Below, one piece after another: positions 1 through 51,063 of a stretch of 51,063 nucleotides of DNA. Every line of letters begins with the position of its first letter. Position 1 is the stretch's first letter. The translations under genes were made by a program, and so were the position numbers. The DNA is from Sulfurimonas sp. Lineage in GTDB: Bacteria > Campylobacterota > Campylobacteria > Campylobacterales > Sulfurimonadaceae. The stretch is taken from assembly GCA_002899765.1 (NCBI GenBank), contig PPDH01000022.1, forward strand, positions 14,614 to 65,676, written 5' to 3'. Below the pieces are notes generated by a model that saw nothing but the letters and a program-made list of their open reading frames with translations, was not told the DNA's origin and searched no databases.

Positions 1-70
1 CTAGTGTCAAGTACCATGGAGTATTTTATTACTATGCCCTACTTACAGTTGTTTTAGAAAGCATATCGAT

Positions 71-94
71 TAAAATTAGGTGCGAAAGCTCAGT
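71..94. repeat. 24-bp inverted repeat, left copy
   Basis: The 24 bases from 71 to 94 recur exactly, in inverted orientation, at 50974-50997 near the other end of the window. The stop codon of the HUH-like gene fragment (90-92) lies inside this copy, so the repeat marks the point where that gene is cut off. The right copy is inside a coding frame of a GGDEF-EAL gene. A chance match of this length in 51 kb is very unlikely. What the repeat is (recombination site, remnant of a duplicated gene piece) is not known. Confidence 0.7.
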
Positions 95-568: not shown

Positions 569-1438
569 ATGGAAAATAAAACTTTAATTAATAATTATAG
601 TAACAAGGCAATTTTGGATAAGTTTTACACAAAAAAAGAGGTGGCTTTGGAGTGTATAAAACAATTGGATTTAAGTGACTATGACTTTATAATAGAGCCA
701 TCTGCAGGTAATGGAAGTTTTTTTAAACAGATAGAACACCTAAATAAAGAAGCTATTGATTTATTGCCTGAAGATCCATCAATTAAGCAAAAAAATTGGT
801 TTACATACAGTATTGAAGAAAAATACAACAATGTTTTAGTGATTGGAAATCCACCGTTTGGAATACGCAATCAATTAAGTAAAGCTTTTATTTTACATGC
901 AGCATCTTTTCCAAATGTAAAAACAATTGCTTTTATCTTGCCGGATGTATTTAAAAAACACACTCTTCAAAAAATATTTCCGCTTGACTTTAGATTAAAA
1001 CAAATACTGGATTTACCAGATGAAGCGTTTTTGTTGAAAGGTAAGCCTTATCATGTGCCTTGTTCTTTTTTTATTTTTGAAAGAAGCGACGGTAAATGTT
1101 TACGATTTGATCAAACTAAGTATATAAAAACAAGACACTTTTCTTTTAGTACAAAAGATGATTTTGATTTTTTTATTAAAGGCGCAGCTCCGGCAAGAGT
1201 TATTGAAACACCAAGTTCTACCAATCGTGGTTATTTTATTAAAGTGCAAGATGGGTTTAGTGTTGAAGAGATCAAGGCAAATTTTAGAACAATCAAATGG
1301 AATGGTTTTTCATAAGTTAATGGTGGGGTGGCGTGGCTCACAAAAGCCGAAATAGTAAAAATATATCAAGAGATTATTTTCGGACAATGTGCTAATAGTA
1401 TCTATTACCATAACGATCAACTACAAGAGGCTTCATAA
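569..1438 (+). pseudogene. Orphan N6-adenine DNA methyltransferase with in-frame stop
   Basis: The first frame (569-1315, 248 residues) has the two hallmark motifs of N6-adenine methyltransferases: the SAM-binding E-P-S-A-G-N-G near residue 45 and the catalytic N-P-P-F-G near residue 94. A good Shine-Dalgarno (AAGGAG) precedes the ATG. The frame stops at TAA 1313-1315 but continues without a shift for 40 more codons (V-N-G-G-V-A-W-L-T-K...) to TAA at 1436-1438, which looks like the natural C-terminus. No restriction enzyme is adjacent, so it is an orphan methylase, a kind of gene common in leading regions of conjugative elements. It may still work if the last 41 residues are dispensable. Confidence 0.7.
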
Positions 1439-1439
1439 T

Positions 1440-1779
1440 AATTGATACAAAAAGCTAAGAGTGCACCTCAAAAAGTCTTTGATTTTTTTTGGAGGTGCAG
1501 GTCAATATGAAAATTTCAGATTGACAAATATATAGGGGGCACGAATCGACATCTATGTCGTGCTTGCTTGATTCCGCTCCAAAGAGCGTAAACAAGATGG
1601 TTTTATGCGGTGGATTAAAATAGAAATTTGGAAATATTTGATTTTCTAGAATATTGAATTCATTTACTTTTTTTCTGGTCTCATTCGTATTTTAGGTGAA
1701 TTCAAAAGATTTCGCAGCATATGTAAGATTTTTTTCATATTACACATATATTACATATAAAAATTAGGAGGTATTAACG
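1440..1779. other. Candidate origin of transfer region (oriT)
   Basis: This 340-base stretch has no convincing gene. It contains an 8-bp inverted repeat, TGCACCTC (1462-1469) with GAGGTGCA (1492-1499), and a tight hairpin CGACAT-CT-ATGTCG (1547-1560) whose flanks GCA/TGC can extend the pairing. It lies directly before the trwA-trwB-trwC-like genes, the position of oriT in R388 and relatives, whose MobF relaxases nick next to inverted repeats. The placement is inference from that layout; no nic site can be assigned by eye. Confidence 0.4.
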
Positions 1780-2250
1780 ATGGCAAAAGAAAATTGGTCG
1801 GCAAGAATTGAAGTAAAATTTAAAAAGGATCTGCAAGAGTTTATGAAAGACTCAAACTACACAAACGAAGATATAGTGATTCAAGGGTATGAAACATTAA
1901 AACATTTACAAAATAATCATGCTGGTGTGGCTTCAACAGTTGCGCCATCAAATCAAGAAGTTTTTACTTCTGAAGCGTTTGATATCAATCTTTTTGAAGA
2001 GATGAATATATCAAACTTCAGTAGAAGTGATTTGCAATACAAACTATCAAGGATAAGTTTTTGGAAACCTTACAATACTCTTTTAAAGATGAATAACGGT
2101 AGATATCTATTTGTCAAAAGTGTTGATAACTCAATCGATGAGATCATATTTGGTGTGATTGGTGAAGCGCTTGAGAGTGTTATATCTTTGCAAAGGATTA
2201 TAAACGAAGTGGAAAATATCAGCCAGATATTTGAGCTAAAGGTTAGGTGA
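1780..2250 (+). CDS. TrwA-like ribbon-helix-helix relaxosome accessory protein
   Basis: A 156-residue protein preceded by a strong ribosome binding site (AGGAGG). Residues 1-45 begin with a short strand-like segment (W-S-A-R-I-E-V-K-F) followed by two helices, the pattern of ribbon-helix-helix DNA-binding proteins such as TrwA and TraY, which bind oriT and assist the relaxase. The rest has no recognised domain. It sits first in an operon with the coupling ATPase (4 bases downstream) and the MobF relaxase, matching the R388 order. The fold is inferred from sequence pattern and gene order, so the role is likely but not certain. Confidence 0.55.
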   Translation: MAKENWSARIEVKFKKDLQEFMKDSNYTNEDIVIQGYETLKHLQNNHAGVASTVAPSNQEVFTSEAFDINLFEEMNISNFSRSDLQYKLSRISFWKPYNTLLKMNNGRYLFVKSVDNSIDEIIFGVIGEALESVISLQRIINEVENISQIFELKVR

Positions 2251-2254
2251 TGCT

Positions 2255-3955
2255 ATGAGTACATTTATACAAAGTTTTAATGTGGGTGCAAACAGTGTAT
2301 CGATGACCGCAAAATATTTTAAGTTCATCATCATAGGTTCGATACTTTTTTCGATCATCATTATATTTTTGAGTGCAACTCTGTTTCAAGAGTTTTTTGA
2401 TTTAAAGATGGAGCCACAAATTACATCCATACTCGAAGATCTTTCGACACTTATCAATATTTTTTTAATGAGTTTTGGAGTTGGAGTAGTACTCACAACC
2501 TTAATAGCATATAGATTCGCAAGTGTGTATAAAAATAAGATTGAAGATGAACACATCAAGGGGAGCAGTGTCTTGTCTGAAAATGCTTTTGCAGACTATC
2601 AATCCCAAAACAGTATCCAAGGGTATGCAATTTCCAAAAAGGTGAAACTCAATCAAGACGATTTAACTCGGATGCTGGGAGTTTATGGCTCTACAGGCAC
2701 GGGGAAGTCTGTGTTACTCAGAAAACTGTTTAAACAGATATATGGCGATAATCATGATGCTAAGATTATTTTTTATGACACAAAACCTGAGTTCTTTACA
2801 GAGTTTTATCAACCAAATCAAGATTTGATTTTAAGCTTGGAGGACAAGCGAAGCGTTCATATAAATTTATTAAAGCTCATTACAAGCACAAGAGATTTGA
2901 ATCGAATCGTTGCTTCAATTATACCTGCGGCTATCAAAGGGGAGGATGAAGGCTGGGTGGTGATGAGTAGATCAATGCTTAGCGGAATATTTATCTACTG
3001 CATTAAACAAAATATCAAAACGATGCAAGAGTTGCGATCTCTTTGTATCCTTCCTTTTAATAAGCTGCTTGAAAAACTATCTGAGATTGAAGGGACTGAA
3101 GCGGCACTCCAATTTTTAGATATAGATGAAAAGCAACAAACCATATATCAAGGTGTATTTAGCTCCAAAATCTCTTTTATAGCAGATTATCCCTGCTTGG
3201 ATTGTCCGCCTCTTGAAAATGGACACATAAACTTTGAAGAGTTTTTTACGTCTAAGGGGAGAAGAGTTTTGTGGATACTCGGAGATGATAACGATGAAAA
3301 AGAGAGATTAAAACGAACCGTAAGCGTTGTTATTGAATTAGCTTCTAATAGTGTTTTTGCACTCGGAGAGAATCAGGCGAGAAAGATTTTTTTCTTTATT
3401 GATGAGTTTTCAGAGCTTAAAAAGATGGACTCACTGCAAAAACTTATAGTAAAAGGTAGAAGCTTTGGATGTAGCATTTTTCTTCTCATGCAAAACCCAT
3501 TTCAGCTGCAAAAAACATACGGCAGAGAAGATGCAGAAACTATCCTCTCTTGTTTAAATACCAACATCATCTTCAAAAGCAATGGCGATAAAACACTTGA
3601 GATACTCTCCAACATGATTGGTAAAAGTAAAGTCAAAGAGGTAAATAGCAACCAATCCTATGGATTATCGCTGATGCGTGACGGTGCAAGTCATAATGAG
3701 AGTCGCAAGATTGAAAACGCAGTTCTGTGAAGCGAAATTCAAAAGCTTAAACGCGGAGAGGTGTATTTCGGTGACATTGAAGGCAACTGGGTAAAAACTC
3801 AAGTTGCTTTCAATCCTATCACTGACAAAGCAGTTGAGAAGTTTTCAGCGCACGAGTATTGTGAGAACCTAATTTTATTAGCGCAAAAAACGACAGAGCA
3901 AGAGGTAATCGAAGAGATTCAAACCAAATCAGACAAAGGAGATATATGGAGTTAA
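2255..3955 (+). pseudogene. TrwB/TraD-like type IV coupling protein ATPase, in-frame stop
   Basis: This is the membrane ATPase that links a relaxosome to a type IV secretion channel. Two N-terminal membrane segments (about residues 22-45 and 68-90) are followed by a Walker A motif (G-S-T-G-T-G-K-S, near 148-155) and a Walker B (F-F-F-I-D-E-F). The first frame ends at TGA 3728-3730 after 491 residues, but the same frame continues S-E-I-Q-K-L-K-R-G-E-V-Y-F and on to 3955, the usual C-terminal segment of this family. A single base change (for example CGA to TGA) would explain the stop. The relaxase gene starts 3 bases after 3955. Confidence 0.8.
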
Positions 3956-3958
3956 TAC

Positions 3959-6718
3959 ATGGCAAAAATCATAAAGTTAGGAGTGAAATCCGCATCAGAA
4001 TACTACTTTGAAAATGACAAAATTATGAATGAAGATGGGCGTGGAGACAATCTTCAAATAACAGGAACACTCGCCAAAGATTTAGGTCTGAAAGAGGGAG
4101 CAAAACTTGAACAAGAGCAAATGAGAAATCTACTCAAAGGTTTTTCTGCCGATGGAGAAGAACAGTACATTGACAGGCTGAAACATAGTTCCACAGGTAA
4201 AGAAAACGCAGCTTATGACATTGTATTCAGTGCCCCAAAAAGTGTAAGTATGCTCTCTTTAACAGTTGACTCAATGTTGCAAAACGCACACAATGAAGCA
4301 GTAGCAGAGGTTCTTACATACATAAATGATAAGTATGCAAAAACAAACGGTTATGATAAAGAGGGAAATCGCACTCTCAATAAAGGCTCAGGTCTTTTAA
4401 TCGCAACAGCAAAACACTCTATTGCAAGGGATGAAATCAAGGGAGTAGAAGATCCACATCTACATACACACAGCTTAGTGTTTAACATAACTAAAGATGC
4501 AAGAGATGGTAAATTTAAAGCACTTGCAGTAAATGATATGCTTAGAGATGCGAATAAGTTTCAAGAAATGTATCGCTCTGCTCTTGCTTTAAAGGTAAAA
4601 GAGCTTGGCTATCAAATAGAAAAACATAGCAGTCAATCGTCGGCTTGGGATATAGCTGGAATAGATAGAGAAAATGTCTTGCACTTCTCGCAGAGGCACA
4701 ACAAGATTGTAGAAAACGCCACAATCTTGCAAGAGCAAGAACATGTACAGCACAAAGGTAAAAAAGACAAATCAGACTTGACAAAAACGGAACTGCTTGA
4801 GAGCTGGAACAAACAACAATCTGAAAATTTTGGAATGAGCTTCAATGAACTTAAAGAGCACTGTCTAAACAATGTAGAGAAAACTCAAAACCATTACGAA
4901 AACCCAAAGCAAGTTTTAGAATCCGCAATGCAAGCCCTCACTCAAAACGAAGCCGTTATTAAAGAGGAGGATGTTTTAAAATTATCTCGTAAATTATCAA
5001 TCGGTGAATTCTCAGACAAGCAACTCAGTGAAGAACTCTCTCACGTTAAAAAAACGGGGCAAGAGAACTCACAAGATATAAAACTATTGGGAGTAGACGA
5101 AAAAGGCAATAAACTCTTCACGACAAAAGCAATGCACGATACAGAACGAGACAATATGAGAATGATAAAAAATCAATATGACATAAAGCCCGTGATGCAA
5201 AATAAAGATGCCACACGGGCAATCAAAGCCTTTAACGACAAACAATCTTGGAACATGAGCAAAGGGCAAACAGAAGCAGTCAATGCGATGCTCACCAACG
5301 ACAAGCAGTTTTTAATCATTAATGGAGATCCCGGTGTAGGAAAAACGACACTCATGGCCGCTTTTGCGGATGCTACAAGCAATCGTAAAGATTTAGAAGT
5401 TAAAATCCTTGCACCCACTGGAAAAGCAGCCAAAGAAGCAAGCGAAGCCTCTGGATTGCAGGCTTCAACTATTGATAGCTTTTTACTCCAAAAAAGATCT
5501 ATGGACGATAAACAAAAAGTCTACATAGTGGATGAGAGCAGTATGCTTGATGCTCAAAAAGCAAATGCACTTTTAAAAATTGCAAGAAAAGAACACGCAC
5601 AGATAGTATTTGTAGGGGATCAAAAACAGCTAAAGAGCATTGGTAGTGGAGATTTTTTCTCCCAAATTCAAGGTCATGTAAAATCAGTAGACATTACAGA
5701 GGCTAACCGCTTTAAAACGGATTTGCAAAAGGAGGTTGCAAAACTTGCCAACAGCAAACAACTTGACAAGGTTGTAGATCTACTTGATGCACATAAAAAA
5801 GTGATTGAGATAGATTCAAAATCAAGCTAAAAAGGGTTATCGCAAGAGCAGATGAGAGAAGAAAAAAAAATAGCCTTGGCAAAAGAGGCTTCAAAAATTA
5901 TCTCTCAAAATTACAAAGAGATCAATGCTTATGCCGCCGACAACAAACAAGTTGATGTAATCAATAAACAAGTTAGACAAGAGATTGGATTTTCTGCAAA
6001 AGAGGGGATGGAGTTTGAGAACATAAAACCAAAAGCGAGTATGAACCAGCTTCACAACAAAGCTCATGCAGCAAATTATACTCTTGGTGATGTAGTTCAA
6101 GTCAATCGCAGTATTAAAGGCTTAAAAAGATTTGCAGAATATGAAGTGAAGGAGATAGATGCACATAACAACAAATTGACACTTCACGCGAATATCAAAG
6201 ATAAAAAAAGTGGCACCACAAAAGAGCATACGGTACAGGTAGATGCAAGAAAACTTTTAAGTGCAAGTATTGGTGAAAAGTCAACCATGGCGGTAGTTGA
6301 GGGTGAAAAAATTCTTATTACTCGAAACAACAAAGAGTTGGGTGTCAATAATGGCGACATTGGATTTGTGAAGTCATTTAATGAGCGAAAAGGAGAAATA
6401 ACACTTAACATCAATGAAAAAGAGGTGACCCTCAATACGAATGAATTTAAAAATATAAGCTATGCCTATGCCACTTCTATTCACAAATCGCAAGGAGCAA
6501 CAGTAGAGAAAGCAGTATTGGTGCTTGATTCAGAAAATCAACAACAAAACGCTTATAACCTTGGCGAAGTGGGTGTGACTCGTCAAAAACATGATCTTGT
6601 GCTTATCACAGACGACAAAGAGCTTATTAAAGAACAGCTCAAAAATGAGCAGGTCAAAACTTCAACGCTGAATCATGAAACCGATTCTAAAAGCAATGTA
6701 AAAAGCACTTATGTATAA
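3959..6718 (+). pseudogene. MobF-family (TrwC/TraI-like) relaxase-helicase, in-frame stop
   Basis: This enzyme nicks oriT, stays bound to the 5' end and unwinds the transferred strand. The N-terminal relaxase domain shows the paired catalytic tyrosines (Tyr15-Tyr16 in S-A-S-E-Y-Y-F) and the metal-binding histidine cluster D-P-H-L-H-T-H. The helicase part has Walker A (G-D-P-G-V-G-K-T), Walker B (V-D-E-S-S-M-L), G-D-Q-K-Q-L and a late S-I-H-K-S-Q-G motif. The frame is broken by TAA at 5828-5830 (623 residues) and continues in the same frame through 5852 to 6718. The relaxase domain and helicase motifs up to G-D-Q-K-Q-L would be made alone; the final motif lies beyond the stop. Confidence 0.85.
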
Positions 6719-10179: not shown

Positions 10180-10237
10180 ACTTACTTCTCCTCCTTTTAA
10201 TACATTAGCATAAAATTTACTTCCAAAACCCTGCACT

Positions 10238-10268
10238 AAAATAGAACCAATTTTTATAATTTTGTCTA
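10238..10268 (-). promoter_or_regulatory. Degenerate TAGACA-type promoter, site 2 (half-site)
   Basis: On the minus strand TAGACAAAAT (10268 to 10259) matches the first half of the shared element exactly, but the second half (NGWCC) is lost. A TATTTT box follows about two bases closer than in the other sites. It precedes the PcfJ-like gene. It may be a weakened operator or a promoter that escaped control. Confidence 0.45.
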
Positions 10269-10277
10269 TATATTAAA

Positions 10278-11339
10278 TTACTTTACAGTAAACCCATCTC
10301 TGCTATTTGATCTTATGATAGTGACATTAGGATTTGCTTTTGCATAGAGCTGTGCTTCTTGAGCTGTTTTGAAAAAAATTTCATCATTGCAAAGCAAGCC
10401 GACTTGCTCATAATTTTCAAATATATATTCAAAATCATCTTGAAAATCTATCGTTACTTTATCGCTTTGTTTGAAACGACCAAATAAAAGTTCATGGGCT
10501 AATTTTTGCTTGATGGTATCGTTGATAATTTTACTTATATATCTAGCACCAAGCTTTGAATCAATTGCACGATTAAGAATCTCTTCTCTAGCTCTGGCGG
10601 TAACTATCATCATTTTACAGTGTGTATGTATTTTGTCCGATAATTCTTTCAAAAATTTATCTGTTATGGCTTGAATCATCTCTTTTGTTAATGAATTAAA
10701 CTCTATCTTAGATTCAATTCTGCCTCTAAGTTCCGGTGATAAAAACTCATTTACTTCATCATCTCTATTTATGCAACTGCTTGAACCAAAACCAACTGTG
10801 CTTTTGGTGGTTGCTCCGAGATTTGATGTCATGATGATAATCACATCTTTAAAACTTACTTTATTTCCTTTTTTATCTGTTAATGTGCCATAATCAAGCA
10901 CTTGCAAAAAAGTATTTAAGATCATAGGATGTGCTTTTTCTATTTCATCTAAAAGTAAAACACATAAAGGATTTTTTCTTATTGCATTCGTTAAAAGTCC
11001 TCCTTCTTCATGCCCGACCAAACTTTTTTCACCACCTATTAGCGTACTTACCCCATACTTACCAGAATACTCACTCATATCAAATCTTTCAAAGTGAAGA
11101 TTGAGATTATTGGCTAACTCTATGGCAAGTTCAGTTTTTCCTACACCTGTTGGTCCTGTAAACAAAAACGATGCTATGGGCTTATGGGCATCACCAAGCC
11201 CCGCTTCTCGTATCATGATTCTACTAGATATCTCTTTTATGGCATGGTCTTGACCAAATACGGATAATTTCAAGTTATTTTCTAAGTTTTGAATGGATGT
11301 TGTGTAATGCATGTTTTGATGGTTATTATGCTCACTCAT
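10278..11339 (-). CDS. ClpA/ClpB D2-like AAA+ ATPase, single domain
   Basis: A 353-residue protein equivalent to only the second ATPase domain of ClpA/ClpB. Walker A is G-P-T-G-V-G-K-T, Walker B is L-L-L-D-E-I-E-K-A-H, sensor-1 is M-T-S-N-L-G, and the Arg finger region S-P-E-L-R-G-R is present. The family's N-terminal substrate domain and first ATPase domain are absent. The last 60 residues form an extra tail rich in aromatic and acidic residues. It is probably a hexameric unfoldase or remodelling ATPase whose adaptor could be the 85-residue protein encoded 13 bases upstream in the same operon. I see no I-G-F/L ClpP-docking loop, so ClpP coupling is doubtful. Confidence 0.85.
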   Translation of the reverse strand: MSEHNNHQNMHYTTSIQNLENNLKLSVFGQDHAIKEISSRIMIREAGLGDAHKPIASFLFTGPTGVGKTELAIELANNLNLHFERFDMSEYSGKYGVSTLIGGEKSLVGHEEGGLLTNAIRKNPLCVLLLDEIEKAHPMILNTFLQVLDYGTLTDKKGNKVSFKDVIIIMTSNLGATTKSTVGFGSSSCINRDDEVNEFLSPELRGRIESKIEFNSLTKEMIQAITDKFLKELSDKIHTHCKMMIVTARAREEILNRAIDSKLGARYISKIINDTIKQKLAHELLFGRFKQSDKVTIDFQDDFEYIFENYEQVGLLCNDEIFFKTAQEAQLYAKANPNVTIIRSNSRDGFTVK

Positions 11340-11352
11340 AAATATTTGCCTC

Positions 11353-11610
11353 TCAATGCGTTTTATAGTATGTAGCTACATCGTAGCCCATCTCTTCAAC
11401 TACATTATCATCATAAATACAAAGCTGTCTTCTTAAAGCTGCAATATTATGAATCCATTTTTTATTATCTTTTATGAAGTATCTGCCATTGTAAGCATTT
11501 GCATCAAGCACGACTTTAAATCCATTTTTTAAAGCTAGATTTTCACTTCCGTTAAACCTTAGCTCCTGAGTGAATTGTTTTGTAGGTTCTTGGTAGTTAT
11601 ATGCGACCAT
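11353..11610 (-). CDS. Small hypothetical protein paired with ClpA-like ATPase
   Basis: An 85-residue soluble protein rich in Asn, Tyr and aromatic residues, with no signal peptide. It starts at ATG 11610 with GAAGGA just upstream. The ribosome binding site lies inside a perfect 12-bp inverted repeat (11615-11643). It is the first gene of a two-gene operon with the ClpA-like ATPase and is controlled by the shared promoter at 11641-11673. I do not recognise a family; an adaptor or substrate role for the ATPase is a guess from the pairing. Confidence 0.6.
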   Translation of the reverse strand: MVAYNYQEPTKQFTQELRFNGSENLALKNGFKVVLDANAYNGRYFIKDNKKWIHNIAALRRQLCIYDDNVVEEMGYDVATYYKTH

Positions 11611-11614
11611 TTCA

Positions 11615-11643
11615 AATCCTTCTATATTTTGTATAGAAGGATT
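11615..11643. promoter_or_regulatory. Perfect 12-bp palindrome over promoter start and RBS
   Basis: AATCCTTCTATA (11615-11626), five bases, then TATAGAAGGATT (11632-11643). On the minus strand the first arm overlaps the end of the TATAAT -10 box and the likely transcription start, and the second arm contains the GAAGGA ribosome binding site of the 85-residue gene. It could be an operator for a second, dimeric regulator, or, if transcription starts earlier, a hairpin hiding the ribosome binding site. No other promoter of the set has it. Confidence 0.6.
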
Positions 11644-11673
11644 ATAGAGAGCTTTATGGACTTATTTTGTCTA
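11641..11673 (-). promoter_or_regulatory. Shared TAGACA-type promoter/operator, site 3
   Basis: On the minus strand TAGACAAAATAAGTCC (11673 to 11658) matches the consensus exactly, with TATAAT (11646 to 11641) eleven bases later. It drives the 85-residue protein and the ClpA-like ATPase. Confidence 0.85.
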
Positions 11674-11769
11674 TAAATAAATTAATTTTTGAAATAGCCA
11701 ATCTAAATTATGTATTGTGTTCAGATTTTTTAATGCCTTTGAAAAATATTATAATTATTAATATTAACT

Positions 11770-12708
11770 CTAGAAACCAAACAATCCATCATTGTCATTT
11801 TGCCCTTTGCCATAATTTGGCATCTGCTTTTTTTCTTGAATTGTATTAATTAGTTTTTCCAGACTTTGAGGAGTTAAAATTATAGTATCTTGTTGTTCTG
11901 CGATTAATTGTCTATTTAAATCAAACATTGGATTATTAATATCAATATCTTTTTTATACATAACAGCACGAGGAATATTATAATTTTTTGCATATTCCAT
12001 TGCAAGTCTAGCCCCGCTATCAAGTTTTTGATTATGTATATTCCAACGAGTTGCTGAATCTTGAGCATAACTTGCAGCTAAAATTATTGTATCACTAAAT
12101 AAAGCCTGCAACCTGTCACGCTCTTTATAGCGACTGCTTAATTCCATGCCAGATTTAAATTGATTGTAGTACTCCGTTATTAACAAACCTCCTTCCTCTA
12201 CAATTTCATATGCTAAACCCTTATTTTTAGCAGGTAAAATATCATTAAGAGGACTTGGTAAAATTGCAATAGTTTTACCACCATTTATAGCTTGTTGATG
12301 AGCGATGCTATCACAACCCATAGCTAAGCCACTTACAATAGTAATATTATTTTTTACAATCTCTTCAACAAGCTTTTGTTCTCTCATCTCTATTTGTTCA
12401 TCAGGATTAAGCAACCCTATTACTGCAATATTACACTTATCAATACTTAAGAGTTCAATATCGCCTTTATAAAAGAGAAAAATAGGTTGCTCACTAGGTT
12501 TTACATTGCCTCTGCATTGTGGGAAATTTTTATCACCAATTGCTATCAACCCATCACAACTATCTTTCAAATTATTTAGTTGTGACTTTATATTATCTTT
12601 TTCAATTTCAAAATCATCAATCGTGACTACATCATTCTGCTTCGATTTATCATTTAACAATGAAACAAGCACTTCTAAACTCTCATTACCTTTTACATTA
12701 TTAACCAC
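11770..12708 (-). CDS. DprA/Smf-family DNA-processing protein
   Basis: A 312-residue member of the DprA Rossmann-fold family, whose classical members bind incoming ssDNA and load RecA. The core G-L-A-M-G-C-D-S-I-A-H-Q-Q and the following strand A-I-L-P-S-P-L are recognisable. The first standard start is GTG at 12708, but the same frame runs upstream with a DprA-like helix (L-T-Y-K-G-I-G-R-A-W) to a TAA at 12766-12768. Before that stands an ATG (12777) overlapping the stop of the upstream gene. The true start is therefore unclear, and one nonsense change may have cut the gene. It is third in an operon with HAD and PRTase genes, which suggests a defence or DNA-processing role rather than housekeeping competence. 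Confidence 0.8.
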   Translation of the reverse strand: MVNNVKGNESLEVLVSLLNDKSKQNDVVTIDDFEIEKDNIKSQLNNLKDSCDGLIAIGDKNFPQCRGNVKPSEQPIFLFYKGDIELLSIDKCNIAVIGLLNPDEQIEMREQKLVEEIVKNNITIVSGLAMGCDSIAHQQAINGGKTIAILPSPLNDILPAKNKGLAYEIVEEGGLLITEYYNQFKSGMELSSRYKERDRLQALFSDTIILAASYAQDSATRWNIHNQKLDSGARLAMEYAKNYNIPRAVMYKKDIDINNPMFDLNRQLIAEQQDTIILTPQSLEKLINTIQEKKQMPNYGKGQNDNDGLFGF

Positions 12709-14050: not shown

Positions 14051-17000
14051 TTACTTTTTCTCTCCTGTTAAAATAAAATTTTGATTTAACTTTGCTTGAG
14101 GAGTTTGTGAAAAATGAAATTTCTCTTGTGTGATTCTAGGTACAATTTCAGATATATGATCAGCAAGTCCCCAGACTTTTAATTTATCGTTATTTATAAA
14201 CGCATCCAATACACCATATGTAAATACACCATGATCTTTATACCCCTCCAATGCTACTTGGTTTTTACTACTAGCAACTATATAGTTTCTATTATCGTCA
14301 TGGGAGAGTCGATTTACGGTGGTAATTTCATCCACCATGCTATCAATAGCGGCACCGCTTTGGCAAGTATCAAGAAGCACGAGCGATTTATTATTTTCCA
14401 GTTTTGATAAATTTGTTTTTATCTCATGGATAGATATTTTCTCAGCCTGGTCATATGGAATAAAGTGGTAAATGCTATCTTTTGAAACGCCATGCCCGGC
14501 TATATAGAGCACAAAAGCATCGTTGATATTTATTTTATCTTTTATCTCATCAAATGTTTTATTAATATTTTCAAGATTAACATCTCTATCATGAAGCTCA
14601 TAAGTAAAGATGCTTTCATAGACTGATTTGCTTTTTTGTTGCAGTTTTTCTTTTACCTTTTTCACATCATTAACAGGATATTTTAAATCTAAGTTATCAT
14701 CTTTATAGTTACTTACTGCAATTGAGAAGAAATATAAATTTTGTTTTTCTTCTATTCTATAGTTTGCTATTACTTTTATAGGCTCACTCTGATTAGCTAT
14801 GTTTTTATCTTTATCATAAGCTTTGAGTGAGATTATATTTTCACCAGAATTCAGAGTATGGGTGCTTTTATAAATTTTACATTTTTCATCTTTAGCTTCA
14901 ATCTTCTCTATGCTAAACCCTCTACTACTTGGCGGATTTATAACTTGTTCATTGATTATAAGTTTTGTATCTGCAACCCCATTTCCTGCATCGCATACTT
15001 GATAAACAAGATCTATCTCTTTTTCATTTATCATCTGATTTGAAAGGATTTGTAGTTCAGGCGGTTTAATATTTAAGATGACTGATTTTACATCCATTGG
15101 AACATCTACTTTTTGACCTGCAAGTATCTTTTTTATCAAATCAGGTCTATAAAATTTATCAAATAGTTGATCATTTTCTATGATTTTTGCTTCTTTATAA
15201 AGTCCTTGGTTTTGGTGGTATTTTAAAAGTTTATGTCCTTCCCCTCCATAGGTAAAGAGTCCTTCTGGAGTATAAAGTATCCAATCTTTTTCGTTTTTAA
15301 TGTAGAGAGAAGCTATAGGTTGAATTTCTTGCTTCTCAAGTAGAAACAACTCAAAGTAAGCTCTTATTTGATTTGCAGTAGGATTAAACCCAAATTGCTG
15401 TATACGATTTTGTAAAACTTTTACAATATCTTCATCGCTTTCACTAAGAATTTCTAAGGGATCCCCTCCAAAAATTTTACTTATCCCCTGAAGTGTTTCC
15501 TGGTGATATCTTTTCTCTTTTTTTGCATATCTATCTAAATGTTTTAAATCAAAAATATTAACCACATTATCAGCTCCGTAAGTTAAAAGTTTTTTATCTT
15601 GAAAATGCCAATTCATTTGTAAAGAATTAAATCCACGAAGATTGGCAACAGGCTTACCATCAAGTGAAAAAATTAACATATTAGTTGGATCAGATGTTGC
15701 AACTATAATATATTTTTCATCTATTACTTCATATTTTAAAGCACTTACAGACAAAAAACTAATCTCAGATAATAATCTGTTATTTTCATCATACAACTCC
15801 AAAATTCTATTTCCATGCTTAGGAATAACCTTAATTAAAGAAGTCTTATTTTTTTTATTCAATTCAGTGTTATCTTTCTCTTTTAAGCTCAATTGTTTGA
15901 GATCAAAACTCAATAAACTATTTTTTGATTTAATATCTATAACATTACGGTTTTTTTTCAAACCTTGAATCTCAAAAGCTTCCAAGCTAAATAGTTGAGT
16001 TACATCACTACTTGAGTGGTTTACAGTATTTATTAACTTTTTATCAAAAGAGATTTGCCCTCTATATACTTCTTTCGATATCCTTTTTTGTTGATTAATA
16101 GAAAAAGTATAAAGTTGATAATCTGATGAAACTGCATATACTAAATAATCATTTTCTTTCTTTACAACTTTTGCTTTTAAAAACTGCCCTTGACCATTTA
16201 GATTATAATGTTGAGCTGAATCAGTCTTCGTATTGATAATGTTTAATAAATTAAAATTATTAATTGCTACAACATACTTTCCATCTTCACTAAGGGCTAA
16301 GTATGTATTTTTCATAGCTTTTTTATTTTTGATAGTTTTGATAACTTTGCCAGTATTGATGTCAAAAACTTTTATTAAATAATTTTTTGAAAAATCTTTA
16401 TCACTGTTCAATGTAGCCGTATATAATAGCTCGTCTTTTTCATCATAATCCATTGTAATGAAAAGGCCTAAAAGTCCATCTGAAATCCAAGATCTTAATT
16501 CTTTTATATACTCTAAACTAAACTTATCATAAAATCTAATTGATTTGCTATCGGTAGATATGAAATAATACTTCTCTGATTCAAGATAAGTAGCAACCTG
16601 CTCTTTTTTTGCAAAGTTCTTTAAAATTGGGATAATATCTTGTTTAGTTTTTTTATCAACAGTATAAATAGGTTTGGATTTTTTGTAGTTTTCAACTATT
16701 GATAGATATTTAATGTCTTTAGTTAGTTTATAAACTGTTTCATACCATTTTTGTGCATTTTCATAATCTTCAAGATCTTCAAGATATATTTCTGCTATTT
16801 TTTCTGCCATTTCATCTTTAACAAATGATTTAGATATTTGAAATGATTTTTTATACATTTCAATCGCTTTATGAAAATCTTGAGCAACAAAACCTCCAGA
16901 TCTATACATATATGCTAAATTATCATAACAAATATATATTTCGTTATTATTTGGATTCTTATTTGTAATATGAGATGCTATTGAAAATGCTTTTTTATCA

Positions 17001-17944
17001 CTTTTATCAAAATTATGATCCTGAGAAAGATTTAGATAGTATGATGAAAGCTGACAACCCATATCTAATCGATTATCTTCGTTATATGACTGTGTTAAAA
17101 ATGTTTTTAGATTTTTATACTCTTTTTTGTCACTATAGTACATCTGTAAAGGTAAATATGCTAAATTTAATTTGCGCTTAACACCTTCTTTTAACCAATG
17201 TAAATATTCTTTTTCTGAAACAATGTCTTTTTTATCAAAATATATTATGGCTATAATGGCATCTTTATTGTCAAGTTCTGCAGACTTTTTATAATATTCA
17301 TATGTTTTTGAATAATCATTAATTTTTTCATATGCGTCACCCATCCTTAGATATATAAAATCTATATCCTTTGGCTTTGTATCAAGGTATAAGTTATAAT
17401 ATTTTAAAGACTCTTCATACTTATTTATTTCATTTGAATTTAGCACATTAGCCAAAACTTTTAAAGATTCTTGATCACCTGTTTCAACAGCTTTTTTTAG
17501 CCATTTAACAGACTTATCGTAATTTTTCTGAATGAAACTTGATTCTACTCCTGCATACATTTGTGCAATATTTCTCATGGCTTTAGCATTTCCAAGATTT
17601 GCAGCTCTTTTATAATACATTAATGCTTGCAGTTCATCTTTATCAACTCCTTCGCCATTTCCATATATTAAACCGAGTAAATTCAAACCAAAGGAATCAT
17701 TTTTTTCTGAAGATTTTTTAGCATATTCAAAAGCTTTTTTAGTATCTTTTTCCACACCCATACCATATAAATAAGCTTTGCCAAGATAGTAAAGTGCCTC
17801 GCCATCATTTGGATATTTTTTAAAAATTTCTATAGCTTCTTTGTGTTTTTGAGTGTCATCAAAAAGCTTTTTTGCTTCATCTATAGTTTGTGCATAAATA
17901 GATATGCTAAGTATTAAAAAATACCAAATAATTTTTTTCATCAA
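14051..17944 (-). CDS. Secreted caspase-like (C14) protease with Sel1/TPR and propeller repeats
   Basis: A 1297-residue protein with an N-terminal Sec signal (about residues 1-19). Residues of roughly 30-420 are Sel1/TPR helical repeats (A-L-Y-Y-L-G-K-A-Y-L-Y-G-M-G). Residues of roughly 440-880 look like a WD40-type beta-propeller. The C-terminal 230 residues are a caspase domain with catalytic His near 1151 (A-G-H-G-V-S) and Cys near 1194 (L-D-T-C-Q-S-G), both intact. The repeats probably sense or bind a protein partner and release the protease. It is last in an operon with a trypsin-like protease and a membrane protein. A periplasmic location is unusual for a defence caspase. Confidence 0.9.
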   Translation of the reverse strand: MMKKIIWYFLILSISIYAQTIDEAKKLFDDTQKHKEAIEIFKKYPNDGEALYYLGKAYLYGMGVEKDTKKAFEYAKKSSEKNDSFGLNLLGLIYGNGEGVDKDELQALMYYKRAANLGNAKAMRNIAQMYAGVESSFIQKNYDKSVKWLKKAVETGDQESLKVLANVLNSNEINKYEESLKYYNLYLDTKPKDIDFIYLRMGDAYEKINDYSKTYEYYKKSAELDNKDAIIAIIYFDKKDIVSEKEYLHWLKEGVKRKLNLAYLPLQMYYSDKKEYKNLKTFLTQSYNEDNRLDMGCQLSSYYLNLSQDHNFDKSDKKAFSIASHITNKNPNNNEIYICYDNLAYMYRSGGFVAQDFHKAIEMYKKSFQISKSFVKDEMAEKIAEIYLEDLEDYENAQKWYETVYKLTKDIKYLSIVENYKKSKPIYTVDKKTKQDIIPILKNFAKKEQVATYLESEKYYFISTDSKSIRFYDKFSLEYIKELRSWISDGLLGLFITMDYDEKDELLYTATLNSDKDFSKNYLIKVFDINTGKVIKTIKNKKAMKNTYLALSEDGKYVVAINNFNLLNIINTKTDSAQHYNLNGQGQFLKAKVVKKENDYLVYAVSSDYQLYTFSINQQKRISKEVYRGQISFDKKLINTVNHSSSDVTQLFSLEAFEIQGLKKNRNVIDIKSKNSLLSFDLKQLSLKEKDNTELNKKNKTSLIKVIPKHGNRILELYDENNRLLSEISFLSVSALKYEVIDEKYIIVATSDPTNMLIFSLDGKPVANLRGFNSLQMNWHFQDKKLLTYGADNVVNIFDLKHLDRYAKKEKRYHQETLQGISKIFGGDPLEILSESDEDIVKVLQNRIQQFGFNPTANQIRAYFELFLLEKQEIQPIASLYIKNEKDWILYTPEGLFTYGGEGHKLLKYHQNQGLYKEAKIIENDQLFDKFYRPDLIKKILAGQKVDVPMDVKSVILNIKPPELQILSNQMINEKEIDLVYQVCDAGNGVADTKLIINEQVINPPSSRGFSIEKIEAKDEKCKIYKSTHTLNSGENIISLKAYDKDKNIANQSEPIKVIANYRIEEKQNLYFFSIAVSNYKDDNLDLKYPVNDVKKVKEKLQQKSKSVYESIFTYELHDRDVNLENINKTFDEIKDKININDAFVLYIAGHGVSKDSIYHFIPYDQAEKISIHEIKTNLSKLENNKSLVLLDTCQSGAAIDSMVDEITTVNRLSHDDNRNYIVASSKNQVALEGYKDHGVFTYGVLDAFINNDKLKVWGLADHISEIVPRITQEKFHFSQTPQAKLNQNFILTGEKK

Positions 17945-18004
17945 TCATTACTCTCTTAGTTTTATAAAATAATCAAACATGTCTATCTCAATCGTAAAAT
18001 TTTA

Positions 18005-19321
18005 TCAATATACAACAACTCTTTCTATTATCCCATCGCCATCTTTGTCATATGCTTTTTTCTCAAAACTTCCATCTTCATCTTCATCAAAAAGTAAATA
18101 ATTATAAACTCCGTTATTACCAGTATCGATGGCAAGCAAATCCATGATACTATTTTTATTTCCGTCTAATTCAAACTGAGTAAGTGGTATGTTTTCTTTA
18201 TCGTAACCACTTTTAGAAGAGAGTTTTGTATATTCTTTATATTGATTGTCTAGTTTTATTTGAAAAGTATCATTTGCTTTTTTTTCTAAAAACTCATTTA
18301 TATCATCGATTGATACTGCAAAGTTAAGATTTTGTCCTTGCGTGTTGCTAAAAGAGTTTAATCCTATGAGCTTATAATCCTCTCCAAGAAGTGGTCCACC
18401 GGAGTTTCCTTTACTTGTAGCACTTTGTGTTTGTATCACAAAGTTTGCTTTATGAGTGTTCCAACTATAGTTTTGTCTTATTGAGCTTACCGTTCCCCAT
18501 CCAAGGGTAAAATACTCTTTTTGAGGATGCCCCATAGTGTAAATATCTTCCCCAATTTCCACATCATCCAAAGATGCAAACGCTACAGGAGTAAGATCTT
18601 TTAAAAAGCTTGTGTCCAATATTTGTAAAAGTGCTAAATCTTTGAGTGGATCAACTTTTAGAATTTTTGCTTTTAAAAAGCTATTTTTATTGGGGTTTGT
18701 GGCATATTTTGATTTTGGTTTAAAAGCTATATTTGCACTATTTTGATTTTTTACTACATGATAATTTGTAAGGATCTTTCCATCTTTTGAGATAACTACA
18801 CCGCTTCCTATTTCATCTTGAGTTTCTACAACAACAGTACTTTTTACTAAGTGGCTATAAGCCTCTTTTTCTTTCACTCCTCTACTATTGCCAATGACAT
18901 CATTTGGATTAAGAGCATATTTTGCATCACCTTTAGTTTGTGCCATTCTTTTAAACTTATTTTTGATATATTTTAGATGAAAAATTTCAGTAGTTTTATC
19001 ATTTTTGAATTCAAATATTACATCACCCTCTTGATCAAAGTTGAGAAAATTTTCTTTTGGAAACTTTACTATCTCATCCTTTTTAAGTTCTATAGTTTTC
19101 ATATGATTTGTACTATTTTTATAAACACTATTGATTTGGATTGTGGTGTCTGTTTTTGATAAAAAAGTAAATTGAATTTTGTCTTGATTTGTAAATAATA
19201 TATCGCCATCATAAACATCATAAGAGTTTTTATCCTCTGTAACACTTATTGTTTTAACATCAAATGCCATCACTCCCATGCTGGCTACAAAGCTCAATAA
19301 AAAGAGCGTTTTAAACATCAA
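18005..19321 (-). CDS. Secreted trypsin-like (HtrA-type) serine protease with EF-hand-like tail
   Basis: A 438-residue protein with a signal peptide (cleavage near residue 19, V-M-A). The trypsin-fold domain carries His188 (L-T-N-Y-H-V-V), Asp228 (K-D-L-A-L-L) and Ser307 (G-N-S-G-G-P), so the catalytic triad is complete. No PDZ domain is visible. The last 50 residues contain D-x-D-x-D-G repeats like EF-hand or dockerin calcium sites. An N-terminal region of about 130 residues before the protease is probably a beta-rich binding domain. Its start overlaps the upstream membrane-protein gene by 11 bases, indicating translational coupling, and the caspase gene follows after 60 bases. Confidence 0.88.
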   Translation of the reverse strand: MMFKTLFLLSFVASMGVMAFDVKTISVTEDKNSYDVYDGDILFTNQDKIQFTFLSKTDTTIQINSVYKNSTNHMKTIELKKDEIVKFPKENFLNFDQEGDVIFEFKNDKTTEIFHLKYIKNKFKRMAQTKGDAKYALNPNDVIGNSRGVKEKEAYSHLVKSTVVVETQDEIGSGVVISKDGKILTNYHVVKNQNSANIAFKPKSKYATNPNKNSFLKAKILKVDPLKDLALLQILDTSFLKDLTPVAFASLDDVEIGEDIYTMGHPQKEYFTLGWGTVSSIRQNYSWNTHKANFVIQTQSATSKGNSGGPLLGEDYKLIGLNSFSNTQGQNLNFAVSIDDINEFLEKKANDTFQIKLDNQYKEYTKLSSKSGYDKENIPLTQFELDGNKNSIMDLLAIDTGNNGVYNYLLFDEDEDGSFEKKAYDKDGDGIIERVVVY

Positions 19322-27333: not shown

Positions 27334-27755
27334 TAAGCCTCACCCTTAATCCACACACACACACACGAATAAGGGGTGCAAGTTTCACTCCCTTAAATAT
27401 CCCCTTGCATTGCAAACAATGATCTTAAAACGCTTCGCTCGACTCCCTTTCTCACTTAGATTTTTTAATCGTAAAAGTCAACAACCATCCTATAATCTTT
27501 TCATCATCTCGATCATTATCAGCACGTTTTTTTAAAGTATTAAATTCTTTTCATAAAAAAATTGACTCTTCTAATAACCAGTAGCTTATTGAAGACAAAA
27601 TTATTTTTAGAATTTATGCATACTGTAAAAAACATACGTGCCGATAGACTCAGCGGAAAAATGAAGATTAAGAGGTCTTCTCTTCTTTTACTTAAAATCT
27701 TTAAGTGAGAAAGAGAAAAAACACCATGCCTCTAAATCTAACAAAAAAATAAATT
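27334..27755 (+). promoter_or_regulatory. Long foldable leader, copy A (candidate ssDNA promoter or structured RNA)
   Basis: This segment shares an ordered set of short conserved blocks with 28662-29015: TAAGCC-CACCCTTAATCC; a hairpin with loop CCAGTAGC (27568-27594, stem AATAA/TTATT plus CTTC/GAAG); CTGTAAAA-CATAC; ACTCA-CGGAA; and ATCTAACAAAA. Between blocks the sequence differs but pairing is kept: CTTTCTCACTTA (27447-27458) pairs with TAAGTGAGAAAG (27702-27713). Such a conserved fold with changed bases signals a structured element. It precedes an ArdC-type gene. Frpo-like single-stranded promoters in conjugative leading regions have this size and place. A (CA)n run is at 27352-27365. Confidence 0.6.
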
Positions 27756-27770
27756 GCAAAAGGATATAAA

Positions 27771-28148
27771 ATGCAAACTCAAAACAACAACACAACAGAA
27801 CAAAGACACTACAGAAAAACTGTAATTGAACTATACACAGAAGCAGTTGACAAAGTAACAAGCAGCAGATTATCTGCTCAACAAGTAAGTGCGAGCGGTA
27901 ATAATTTTACTGGCTTAAACAACAATATTCTTGCAAATGCTCAAAAAGAGCTTGGATACAAAAGCAATGTCTGGTTTACAGAAAAACAAATGCAAGAGCA
28001 AAATCTTGTTCAAATAGATGAAGACAATTACGGAGTAATCTTGTTTTCTACATATCTCAAAGATATTGAGGGAACAAATCGTAAAGAAAAGGCACTTCGC
28101 TTTTATAAAGTGTTCAATAAAGATGCACTTGAAACAATCCCTCTTTAA
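27771..28148 (+). CDS. ArdC N-terminal-domain-like protein
   Basis: A 125-residue protein. The middle (N-N-N-I-L, then Y-K-S-N-V-W-F-T-E-K-Q-M-Q-E-Q, and Y-G-V-I-L-F) follows the layout of the ArdC N-terminal ssDNA-binding domain found in antirestriction proteins, as does the end (F-Y-K-V-F-N-K-D-A-L; compare V-F-N-K-D in the full ArdC gene at 29029). It lacks the metalloprotease part. A ribosome binding site (AAAAGGATA) precedes the ATG. It stands right after leader copy A, so early expression on conjugative entry is a likely purpose. The match is by pattern, without a database search. Confidence 0.6.
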   Translation: MQTQNNNTTEQRHYRKTVIELYTEAVDKVTSSRLSAQQVSASGNNFTGLNNNILANAQKELGYKSNVWFTEKQMQEQNLVQIDEDNYGVILFSTYLKDIEGTNRKEKALRFYKVFNKDALETIPL

Positions 28149-28233
28149 GGGATTGTGATTATTTTTTAGCACAATACTTTTGTGTTAAACATTCATAAAT
28201 CTACGATCTAAAAATAAATATGGAGAAGACAAA

Positions 28234-28632
28234 ATGACACTGCAAGACTTGAAAGCACTTGAATACACAACAGAGTTAGAGCAAGAGATAAAAGAGATTA
28301 TCTTAAACAATGCCAAAAACTATGATGAGCCAACCGTTTTTTTTGAAGATCTCTTATCTTATGGATGCAAAAGCGGAATGATAAGCGAGCTTTTTTATTA
28401 TACAGATACAGTTGATTTTTGCAAAAGACACTCATCAGACATCAACGAAGTTATATCTGATTTGTTAAGCTTATATGATCTAAAAGATATTAGAGAATTA
28501 CTTGCAGATAACTTTGATGTAAATGATCCGTTATGCATAAATAATCATAATTTAAATTTGATCGCTTGGTTTGTATTTGAAGAGACGTGCAGAAGCGTTT
28601 ACGAGAGCTCAAGAGCATCAGAAGCAGCATAA
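28234..28632 (+). CDS. Hypothetical plasmid/phage-type protein (DUF7222-like)
   Basis: A 132-residue acidic protein. The segment F-F-E-D-L-L-S-Y-G-C-K-S-G-M-I-S followed by Y-Y-T-D-T resembles a family of uncharacterised proteins on phages and plasmids (similar to DUF7222, from memory). It lies between the two ArdC-type genes, has a ribosome binding site (GGAGAAG), and ends just before leader copy B. It is probably part of the same leading-region antirestriction cargo. The function is unknown. Confidence 0.5.
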   Translation: MTLQDLKALEYTTELEQEIKEIILNNAKNYDEPTVFFEDLLSYGCKSGMISELFYYTDTVDFCKRHSSDINEVISDLLSLYDLKDIRELLADNFDVNDPLCINNHNLNLIAWFVFEETCRSVYESSRASEAA

Positions 28633-28661
28633 CTGATAGAGAAATCTATCAGCTGCATTTT

Positions 28662-29015
28662 TAAGCCACACCCTTAATCCCACCAAAATTTGCAACTGTA
28701 TTACAGCTGCAACGACTTTCTTTTTTCAAATTTTTTAAATCAGAAAAAACCACTTCTTCAATATCTAACTATCCGTTTTTTGTGTTCATCAAAATGTTTT
28801 AAGTGTTTAAGTATGTATTCAAATCAACTGATAAGCAAATCACCAGTAGCCAATTTGCTTCTAAGCTGTTTTGATACTGAAACACCCTGTAAAACATACC
28901 CGACAAACTCAACGGAAGAAAAGTTAGACAAAGAAAGTGACTTGTTTTTTCTTAAAAATTTGAAAAAAGAAAGAATAAAAACACCCCTCAAAATCTAACA
29001 AAAGAAAAATTAAAT
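28662..29015 (+). promoter_or_regulatory. Long foldable leader, copy B (candidate ssDNA promoter or structured RNA)
   Basis: This is the second copy of the element at 27334. CTTTCTTTTTTCAAATTTTT (28716-28735) is perfectly complementary to the 20 bases at 28954-28973, replacing a different pair of arms in copy A. The hairpin AAGCAAAT (28833-28840) / ATTTGCTT (28853-28860) again shows CCAGTAGC in its loop. CTGTAAAACATAC and ACTCAACGGAA follow. It ends just before the ArdC gene. An internal hairpin TTGCA-CTGT-ATT-ACAG-TGCAA is at about 28690-28712. The short frame at 28690-28998 crosses these structures and is unlikely to be a gene. Confidence 0.6.
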
Positions 29016-29028
29016 TAAGGAAGACAAA

Positions 29029-29880
29029 ATGAACTTAGAACACGTAATGAACAGACTAATCGAAAAAATAGAGAACAGCGAAGGCAACTGGATACAACCG
29101 TTTAATAATTCAATGCCAAGCAATTTCACAAACAATACTGAATATTCAGGAATTAACATTATCAATTTATGGATAGAAGCAGAAGAAAGAGGCTACACAA
29201 CGAACGAATGGGCGACATTTAAGCAAATTAAAGCGATGAATGGAACTGTAGATAAAGGCGAAAAAGGAACAACAATCTTCTTTTTTAAACCAACCAAAAT
29301 TAAAGAGATAGATGAAGAAACAAGCGAAGAGACAGAAAAAACTATTCCAATGCTAAAGACTTATTTAGTTTTTAACAAAGATCAAACGAGCTTAAAAGAC
29401 ACTGCAACAAGCAACGAGATTTTAGAACTTGAAGAGCTTAAAAGCAATCTATTTGTAGAGCTAAAACATAGCAATAAGGGAGCTTTTTACAATCCGAAAA
29501 GCGATTATATAAATATGCCGCACATTGACTCTTTTATTAGTTCAGATTTTTATTATGCAGTATTGCTTCATGAATTAGCACACAGCACAGCACATAAAAT
29601 AAGACTAAACAGAGACTTAAACGGAAGAGTAAACGGAACAAAAGCAGAGCTTATAAGCTATGCAAAAGAAGAGCTAATAGCAGAGACAACACGCTCTTTT
29701 TTACAAGTAAGAATGGGGCTAAACAGCACGAAGATGGAAGAGCAAAATGCTTTATATTTAAAGAGCTGGTTAAAGCCATTAAAAGAAAATCCAAAAATCC
29801 TTTGGTCTATATTTAGCGAAGCTTCAAAAGCTTACAACTTTATTCTTGAAAATACAAAAGCAAAGGAGGAAGCAGCATGA
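29029..29880 (+). CDS. ardC: ArdC-family antirestriction protein (ssDNA-binding metalloprotease-like)
   Basis: A 283-residue protein. Residues of about 1-120 are the ArdC N-terminal ssDNA-binding domain (N-I-I-N-L-W, then W-A-T-F-K-Q-I). Residues 181-189 (H-E-L-A-H-S-T-A-H) are a zincin-type zinc site, followed by a Y-A-K-E-E-L-I-A-E helix that supplies the third ligand. ArdC protects incoming single-stranded conjugative DNA from restriction. The gene follows leader copy B with a good ribosome binding site (AAGGAAG). A tiny gene overlaps its stop. Confidence 0.85.
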   Translation: MNLEHVMNRLIEKIENSEGNWIQPFNNSMPSNFTNNTEYSGINIINLWIEAEERGYTTNEWATFKQIKAMNGTVDKGEKGTTIFFFKPTKIKEIDEETSEETEKTIPMLKTYLVFNKDQTSLKDTATSNEILELEELKSNLFVELKHSNKGAFYNPKSDYINMPHIDSFISSDFYYAVLLHELAHSTAHKIRLNRDLNGRVNGTKAELISYAKEELIAETTRSFLQVRMGLNSTKMEEQNALYLKSWLKPLKENPKILWSIFSEASKAYNFILENTKAKEEAA

Positions 29881-30550: not shown

Positions 30551-30627
<77 letters not shown>

Positions 30628-50959: not shown

Positions 50960-50973
50960 TCTAGATATTAGAT

Positions 50974-50997
50974 ACTGAGCTTTCGCACCTAATTTTA
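50974..50997. repeat. 24-bp inverted repeat, right copy
   Basis: This copy is exactly complementary to 71-94. Here the sequence is part of the open frame of the GGDEF-EAL gene (K-L-G-A-K-A-Q on the minus strand), at the point where the frame is disturbed. Because the two copies are inverted, recombination between them would flip the whole 50.9 kb between them. Confidence 0.7.
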
Positions 50998-51063
50998 TAG
51001 TGTTACATTCGGTAGTAGCGGTATTCTCTCAGCATTTGTCATATCTATTGACATGTATTTTTC

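Follow-up and report, generated by a model that had tools for sequence, protein, structure and literature searches.

Introduction

When single-stranded, Frpo1 and Frpo2 adopt a folded structure, and deletion of either of them abolishes the early expression of the genes located behind it (PMC9849209). Anti-defence genes of leading regions are found in the T-strand orientation, and relaxase genes are typically located in the lagging region (PMC11541004). The latter study (Samuel et al. 2024) described Frpo' and Frpo*, which are, like the elements reported here, candidate single-stranded DNA (ssDNA) promoters recognized by their fold and position in anti-defence islands. Frpo' and Frpo* were sought by means of a -35/-10 consensus and of similarity to Frpo, whereas the present evidence consists of covariation and strand bias in 44 copies belonging to two families. 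The word "Campylobacter" does not appear in the main text of PMC11541004. Searches of the open-access literature, limited to titles and to the starts of abstracts, retrieved nothing on Frpo or ssDNA promoters in Campylobacter, Sulfurimonas, or Helicobacter, nothing on such elements in connection with antirestriction or conjugation in Sulfurimonas, and nothing on ssDNA promoters since 2019. Whether conjugative DNA outside enterobacterial plasmids uses single strands to switch on anti-defence genes is largely open, and we describe here a conserved candidate in another phylum.

Two copies of a hairpin module upstream from ArdC-type genes

The window, i.e., the whole stretch of 51,063 nucleotides that was analyzed, originates from contig PPDH01000022.1 of Sulfurimonas sp. 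(assembly GCA_002899765.1). It contains two non-coding elements of interest, A and B, each preceding an ArdC-type gene (Table 1). The original prediction, made from the sequence alone, was that A (27334 to 27755) and B (28662 to 29015) have blocks and pairings in common, including a perfect 20-bp pair in B and one hairpin motif presented by different stems. These claims held, the blocks being found at the places given. The block CACCCTTAATCC is the 5' block shared by the two copies. The arms of A pair CTTTCTCACTTA (27447 to 27458) with TAAGTGAGAAAG (27702 to 27713), and the motif CCAGTAGC is present in the apical hairpin of both elements (27578 to 27585 in A and 28843 to 28850 in B), although the stems that present it differ. 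The sequences of A and B align across the region, and the hairpin module has a length of approximately 330 bases. A and B are diverged copies of this single module.

Structure prediction afforded 132 pairs for A and 125 for B, with the small flanking helices counted in. The minus-strand fold was more stable than that of shuffled sequences (z of -6.0 for A and -7.8 for B), as was the plus-strand fold (z of -5.2 and -8.2, respectively), which is expected of any palindrome. The minus-strand and plus-strand energies were -102.0 versus -74.4 kcal/mol for A and -110.2 versus -79.2 kcal/mol for B.

Table 1. Positions in the window of elements A and B, of their parts, and of the associated genes
Feature	Position	Strand	Remarks
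Small protein at the TrwA position	1780..2250	+	5' of TrwB; no match in Pfam; role inferred from its location
Intergenic stretch, putative oriT place	1316..1779		Inferred by analogy with R388; inverted repeat 1462-1469/1492-1499; nic not found
TrwB-like coupling protein	2255..3730	+	Profile match extends only to 359 of 387; probable premature end of the frame
MobF/TrwC relaxase and first helicase part	3959..5830	+	Split gene
C-terminal helicase part of the split relaxase gene	5852..6718	+
Block CACCCTTAATCC at A	27341..27352		Common to A and B; outside the main hairpin
Element A	27397..27770	-	Long hairpin on the minus strand, directly 5' of the ArdC N-domain gene
Element A, arms	27421-27548 and 27609-27738
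Element A, apical hairpin	27562-27598
Element A, closing helix	27397-27408/27756-27767
Gene after A	27771..28148	+	ArdC N-terminal domain only (PF08401)
Terminator-like site	28134..28156	+	End of the gene after A
DUF7222 protein gene	28234..28632	+
Terminator-like site	28633..28652	+	Between the DUF7222 gene and element B
Element B	28655..29028	-	Long hairpin on the minus strand, directly 5' of ardC
Block CACCCTTAATCC at B	28669..28680		Second copy
Element B, perfect 20-bp helix	28716-28735/28954-28973
Element B, apical hairpin	28819-28874
Element B, small flanking hairpins	28690-28712 and 28985-29021
Gene after B	29029..29880	+	ArdC (PF08401 and zincin PF18818)

Since terminator-like sites end both of the genes that precede B, ardC probably depends on a promoter of its own. 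Comparison of the window with Rfam, a check that the original prediction had called for and that would have refuted it had the copies matched a known family, returned nothing above the gathering score except a tRNA (30551 to 30624); four weak matches were found below threshold (E of 0.058 to 0.53).

A family of related elements in Campylobacterota

Searches with nhmmer retrieved 15 distinct full-length copies of the module, designated family I, of which four are present in the source genome. Besides A and B, contig C14 of that genome carries a copy that is 95% identical to B and precedes ardC, and contig C33 carries a copy that precedes a 65-residue open reading frame (ORF) with a J-domain gene behind it. 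When one arm was modeled from sequence alone, the search recovered these four copies in the source genome and no others at an E value of ≤0.001. At the same threshold, this model matched 25 of 398 genomes of the order, some of them weakly; the matches (E ≤1e-3) span 12 of the 87 genera sampled, the strongest ones outside the genus being found in one family. The related element L016 had matches in 19 of 135 Sulfurimonas genomes at an E value of ≤1e-4, several of which were weak. Sixteen newly found loci (L129 to L144) were examined among the matches of the arm model, bringing family I to 31 copies with the 15 found earlier; a partial copy (L069), the remnant in L061, and the weak copy L073 were not used, and L140 was omitted from one alignment. 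The module formed by A and B is thus a member of an order-wide family in Campylobacterota.

Other probes were less useful. A tail pattern with at most one mismatch was found in 7 of 398 genomes, and 3 of the 8 places were true elements (two in the source genome and L016). In viral contigs, the pattern occurred at two places, both judged to be chance matches, and among 14 places in genome contigs, 3 of the 10 inspected were true (L023, L027, and L032; L027 and L032 are the same as L063 and L064). The tail alone is a poor probe for these elements. The first BLAST matches in other families (L008 to L011) were short and, on reading, were judged to be due to chance.

The hairpin fold is under selection

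Covariation was analyzed in a set of 11 relatives from which A, B, the C14 copy, and the second G349 copy were left out. For the 105 pairs of the fold, 94.5% of the cells were paired in these relatives versus 91.1% in shuffles. Compensatory double changes were found at 22 pairs, against a mean of 7.8 in shuffles, and none of 500 shuffles reached 22. Sliding the partner along the sequence left only 2 to 7 pairs with double changes. These results show that the hairpin fold is under selection. The original prediction had taken covariation between A and B as proof of such selection and would have been refuted by the absence of significant covariation upon addition of homologues. This did not occur, since the 11 relatives gave a significant excess, but the claim holds only by virtue of these relatives, the two copies alone being insufficient. 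RNAalifold applied to all 15 copies recovered no more than 25 pairs, the arms being displaced by gaps.

The palindrome score exceeded the 99th percentile of the controls for 15 of the first 15 and for 13 of the 16 further elements of family I, and G378 had a z of only -0.6, which counts against the ssDNA-promoter reading discussed below.

Selection appears to act on the strand complementary to the mRNA

In a folded single strand, G·T mismatches are less disruptive than A·C mismatches, and counting these two mismatches is therefore a simple evolutionary test for which strand works. With the arms aligned under equal mismatch penalties, the strand complementary to the mRNA contained 69 G·T versus 5 A·C in the first 15 elements, for which base composition predicts a ratio of 185:125. 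The same method gave 64 G·T versus 17 A·C in the 16 further elements, and counting by alignment columns of the 11 relatives gave 35 and 5, respectively. The P value for the first 15 elements (9e-11) is too good, since the sequences are related and the counts were not corrected for relatedness. Selection appears to act on the strand complementary to the mRNA.

Folding energies gave the same answer. The minus-strand fold was the more stable one in 43 of 43 elements (15/15, 16/16, and 12/12) versus 93 of 240 control regions. The controls were drawn at random from 440 upstream regions of the same loci as 370-base stretches, which may include coding DNA; L105, which is short, was excluded. The consensus fold of the 11 relatives had an energy of -57.2 kcal/mol for the plus strand versus -97.4 kcal/mol for the minus strand. 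The strand on which the fold is kept is the template strand of the downstream gene.

Two alternative explanations bear on this result. The elements could be structured 5' leaders of the mRNA, as the word "leader" in the original prediction implied, and act as attenuators or in a riboswitch-like manner. The position directly 5' of the start codon is in favor of this possibility, as is the fact that the plus strand beats shuffles in several copies, B among them. However, each G·T of the minus strand is an A·C on the mRNA, so that an mRNA leader would show the opposite bias, and both the consensus energies and the 43 individual comparisons favor the minus strand. A leader is accordingly very unlikely, and that part of the prediction had to be corrected. 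The elements could also function as double-stranded DNA, as a cruciform, a protein-binding palindrome, or a palindromic MITE. The high palindrome scores of family I are in favor of this explanation, together with a remnant in L061 (7745 to 7819) that keeps the basal stem without the apical part. However, a double-stranded palindrome would show no bias and offers no reason for the 69:5 ratio, and the fixed register at gene starts and the covariation do not fit a palindromic MITE or other transposable element. This alternative is also highly improbable.

Genes located behind the elements

In family I, a gene follows immediately behind 30 of the 31 elements, the exception lacking a following ORF of at least 60 amino acids. 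According to Pfam searches run on examples, the first gene codes for a J-domain protein in 13 copies, ArdA in 8, ArdC in 4, the ArdC N-terminal domain in 1, and a DUF7222 protein in 1. The remaining copies precede a 65-residue ORF (two copies), another ORF (one copy), or no ORF of ≥60 amino acids (one copy). Antirestriction genes encoding ArdA, ArdC, or the ArdC N-terminal domain are thus the first gene in 13 of 31 elements, the ArdA gene of L071 being broken by a stop codon. One locus, L160, resembles the window in containing, in order, an element, an ArdC N-domain gene, a small ORF, an element, and a DUF7222 gene.

The position of the genes bears on a further alternative, in which the module would be only a single-strand origin, the hairpin providing an RNA that primes synthesis of the second strand (sso/ssi-like) and the proximity of genes being incidental. 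Folding on one strand is compatible with this function, and Frpo is reported, in the title of Masai and Arai 1997, to combine the two roles. However, in 15 of the 16 loci detected with the arm model, the start of the gene is located between -10 and +4 nucleotides from the projected end of the element, and the two copies that lie close together in the window and in L160 would not be needed by an origin. We regard an origin function alone as unlikely.

A decayed conjugative element in the window

In R388, a small gene, the TrwB gene, and the relaxase gene follow one another, an order that is also present in the window, and the place of oriT was inferred by analogy with the R388 layout. In the window, the relaxase gene is divided between two ORFs and the TrwB-like frame is probably truncated, indicating that the conjugative element is decayed. 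The TrwB/TrwC operon is on the same strand as A and B. Contig C14 contains the ardC end of the element followed by an integrase gene and, beyond it, a stretch of 49 bases that is 92% identical to DNA located approximately 1.3 kb to the left of the window. Based on this similarity, the element is inferred to run from approximately 1.3 kb left of the window to approximately 30.3 kb. The C14 similarity also suggests that, in the circular form, a distance of about 3.5 kb would separate ardC from the mob operon, toward which ardC would be directed. With oriT upstream of the mob operon, as inferred, the minus strand would be the one transferred, and the leading region would include A and B, an arrangement like that of F. 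The location of A and B in the leading region of the element to which the decayed operon belongs is probable, the place of oriT being itself an inference.

Other loci provide mixed support for this orientation. A recognized relaxase or coupling gene was present in 16 loci (15 of 43 loci plus the window), on the same strand as the gene behind the element in 12 and on the opposite strand in 4. In L151, an element, a J-domain gene, a mobC-like gene, a relaxase gene, and a TraD gene are found in that order on one strand, the relaxase differing from that of the window. In the four opposite loci (L065, L066, L067, and L071), the mobilization gene converges on the gene behind the element; because the mobilization genes are on the other strand, these loci would need a different place of oriT or direction of transfer, given that an oriT upstream of the relaxase gene would make the folded strand the one that is not transferred. 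An oriT-like stretch is present upstream of the mobC-like gene of L071 and, if confirmed, would count against the identity of the folded and transferred strands. Some of the mobilization matches are fragments at contig or locus ends (L152, L154, L158, and L161), and L152 and L154 come from one genome. The count of mobilization genes excludes an unidentified protein (Mob325) encoded by the opposite strand of L060, L062, L063, and L146.

Searching for the RP4-type motif YATCCTGY as an indication of oriT revealed no convincing site, and the nic site was not located. Four hairpins in a row are present in L065 (2522 to 2759) and L071 (6930 to 7163), between TraD and the putatively element-driven genes; the arrangement is conserved, although the sequences differ, as do the relaxases. 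This block was considered as a possible oriT, although its location beside two different relaxase types counts against this; it matches 4 of 135 genomes, two of them convincingly. The tRNA-Met was rejected as an attachment site, no convincing shared repeat being found apart from one 14-base AT-rich match.

Several other features of the source genome were recorded. A second MobF match above the cutoff is present on contig C8, and contig C2 has a relaxase match of the PF03432 type. Both ends of the window (1 to 97 and 50962 to 51063) match positions 427 to 643 of C14, as if an insertion-like sequence were repeated at both ends. The island contains PcfJ-like, ClpX/ClpB-like AAA, and DprA-like genes (8656 to 12708). 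A gene for a large Sel1-repeat protein with a caspase domain is located beside a trypsin-like protease gene (14051 to 19321), possibly forming a defence system.

Comparison with Frpo and proposed mechanism

Frpo2 of the F plasmid, located before ssb, and a second F copy, which we take to be Frpo1, each had 10 G·T versus 4 A·C on the folded strand and a minus-strand fold more stable by 27 to 30 kcal/mol. Four related plasmid regions had 6 to 8 G·T versus 1 to 4 A·C, and two other upstream regions of F had G·T:A·C ratios of 1:1 and 5:7. The elements thus resemble Frpo1 and Frpo2 in being non-coding and directly 5' of leading-region genes, in forming a long imperfect hairpin on the template strand with an excess of G·T over A·C, and in the occurrence of two copies in one mobile element. 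They differ from Frpo1 and Frpo2 in that they are AT-rich, display a stronger bias, have no recognizable promoter boxes, and, in the loci found, are located on Campylobacterota genome contigs.

The elements are not Frpo by sequence. Comparison of three of them with 72,556 plasmid records by blastn revealed no match at an E value of ≤0.01, whereas Frpo2 matched at least 5,000 records, and the profiles of families I and II (see below) did not match Frpo1 or Frpo2 at E values up to 1. Sigma-70-like matches in the region were at the chance level (8 found versus 7.9 expected). No conserved -35/-10 pair was found in the elements by a simple scan, which was also nearly silent on Frpo of F.

The original prediction offered two readings, a Frpo-like ssDNA promoter or a structured RNA of unknown type. 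The first is supported, because the fold is selected on the template strand, Frpo1 and Frpo2 have the same bias, and the MobF operon is on the same strand. The second is contradicted by the strand bias in its mRNA-leader form and survives only as a possible RNA from the minus strand. Such a cis-antisense RNA of approximately 330 nucleotides would start near or in the gene and act as a repressor through hairpins overlapping the ribosome-binding site. In its favor, folding is on the minus strand, which also forms G·U pairs in the small hairpin at the ribosome-binding site, and 3 of 15 elements, namely, B (28712 to 28690), the near-identical C14 copy, and G372, carry a terminator-like site behind the hairpin on the minus strand. 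Against it, 12 of the 15 elements, including A, lack such a site, the 5' end of the RNA would sit in or beside the coding sequence, the known Frpo has the same strand signature, and no Rfam family matches. An antisense RNA is therefore an unlikely explanation.

We consider the ssDNA-promoter reading of A and B to be likely, although promoter activity, a transcription start, and a nic site have not been shown. According to this reading, A and B would be ssDNA promoters belonging to the leading region of an integrative conjugative element that has since decayed. Upon entry of the single strand, each copy would fold into a long hairpin, and the host RNA polymerase would start inside the double-stranded stem, leave the hairpin at its base, and transcribe ardC and the neighboring genes, with the transferred strand as the template. 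The antirestriction proteins would be made before the complementary strand exists, and conversion to double-stranded DNA would abolish the hairpin and switch the promoter off. That A and B work in this manner, as Frpo does, is probable; the identity of the folded and transferred strands, the start by RNA polymerase, and the timing are all inferred, and no transcription has been shown.

A second hairpin family and the J-domain protein

ArdA matches were found in 9 of 298 genomes examined. Among nine other ArdA loci of the order, three, all from Sulfurimonas, had a second type of long hairpin before ArdA; the signal was weaker in L085 (z of -3.6), nothing clear was seen in L081, L083, L084, and L086, and L087 fell outside the assessment since a different ORF had been taken. 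This second hairpin (family II) had matches in 13 of 135 Sulfurimonas genomes. Thirteen of 15 places were examined. The 13 copies precede ArdA (nine copies), a J-domain gene (two copies), another small ORF (one copy), or a J-domain gene cut by the contig end (one copy, L097). All 13 fold better on the minus strand, with 73 G·T versus 31 A·C in total. None of 12 palindrome scores exceeded the 99th percentile of the controls.

Comparison of the family I and II profiles gave no significant match in a very small set (best E value of 0.055). The weak matches fall on the same stretch near the apex, and a distant kinship of the two families cannot be excluded. The presence of two such sequences in front of similar sets of genes is an argument that the function resides in the fold and in the strand that forms it. 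A bolder reading, toward which we lean only slightly, is that mobile elements of Campylobacterota contain at least two sequence families of ssDNA promoters unrelated to Frpo and perhaps to each other, which share their leading-region genes. In each family, the conserved feature would be the fold of the transferred strand, recognizable in genomes because G·T outnumbers A·C in the stem. If this is true, ssDNA promoters would recur as a type of element, and searches for them could rely on strand-biased covariation instead of sequence.

The leading-region genes ardA, ssb, and psiB of enterobacterial plasmids overlap with the cargo of these elements (ardA in ColIb-P9; PMC9849209). Unlike in enterobacterial leading regions, the commonest cargo is here a J-domain protein of unknown role, found behind 15 of 44 elements of both families in addition to the gene cut by a contig end. 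Its frequency behind the elements makes it a candidate anti-defence protein. The Pfam match to the J-domain is below the cutoff (22.6 versus 27.8 bits), and the protein strongly matches a PHROG of unknown function. A tblastn search with one representative (L066, 5738 to 6199) detected relatives on 2,695 plasmid records, 2,204 of which are typed as conjugative.
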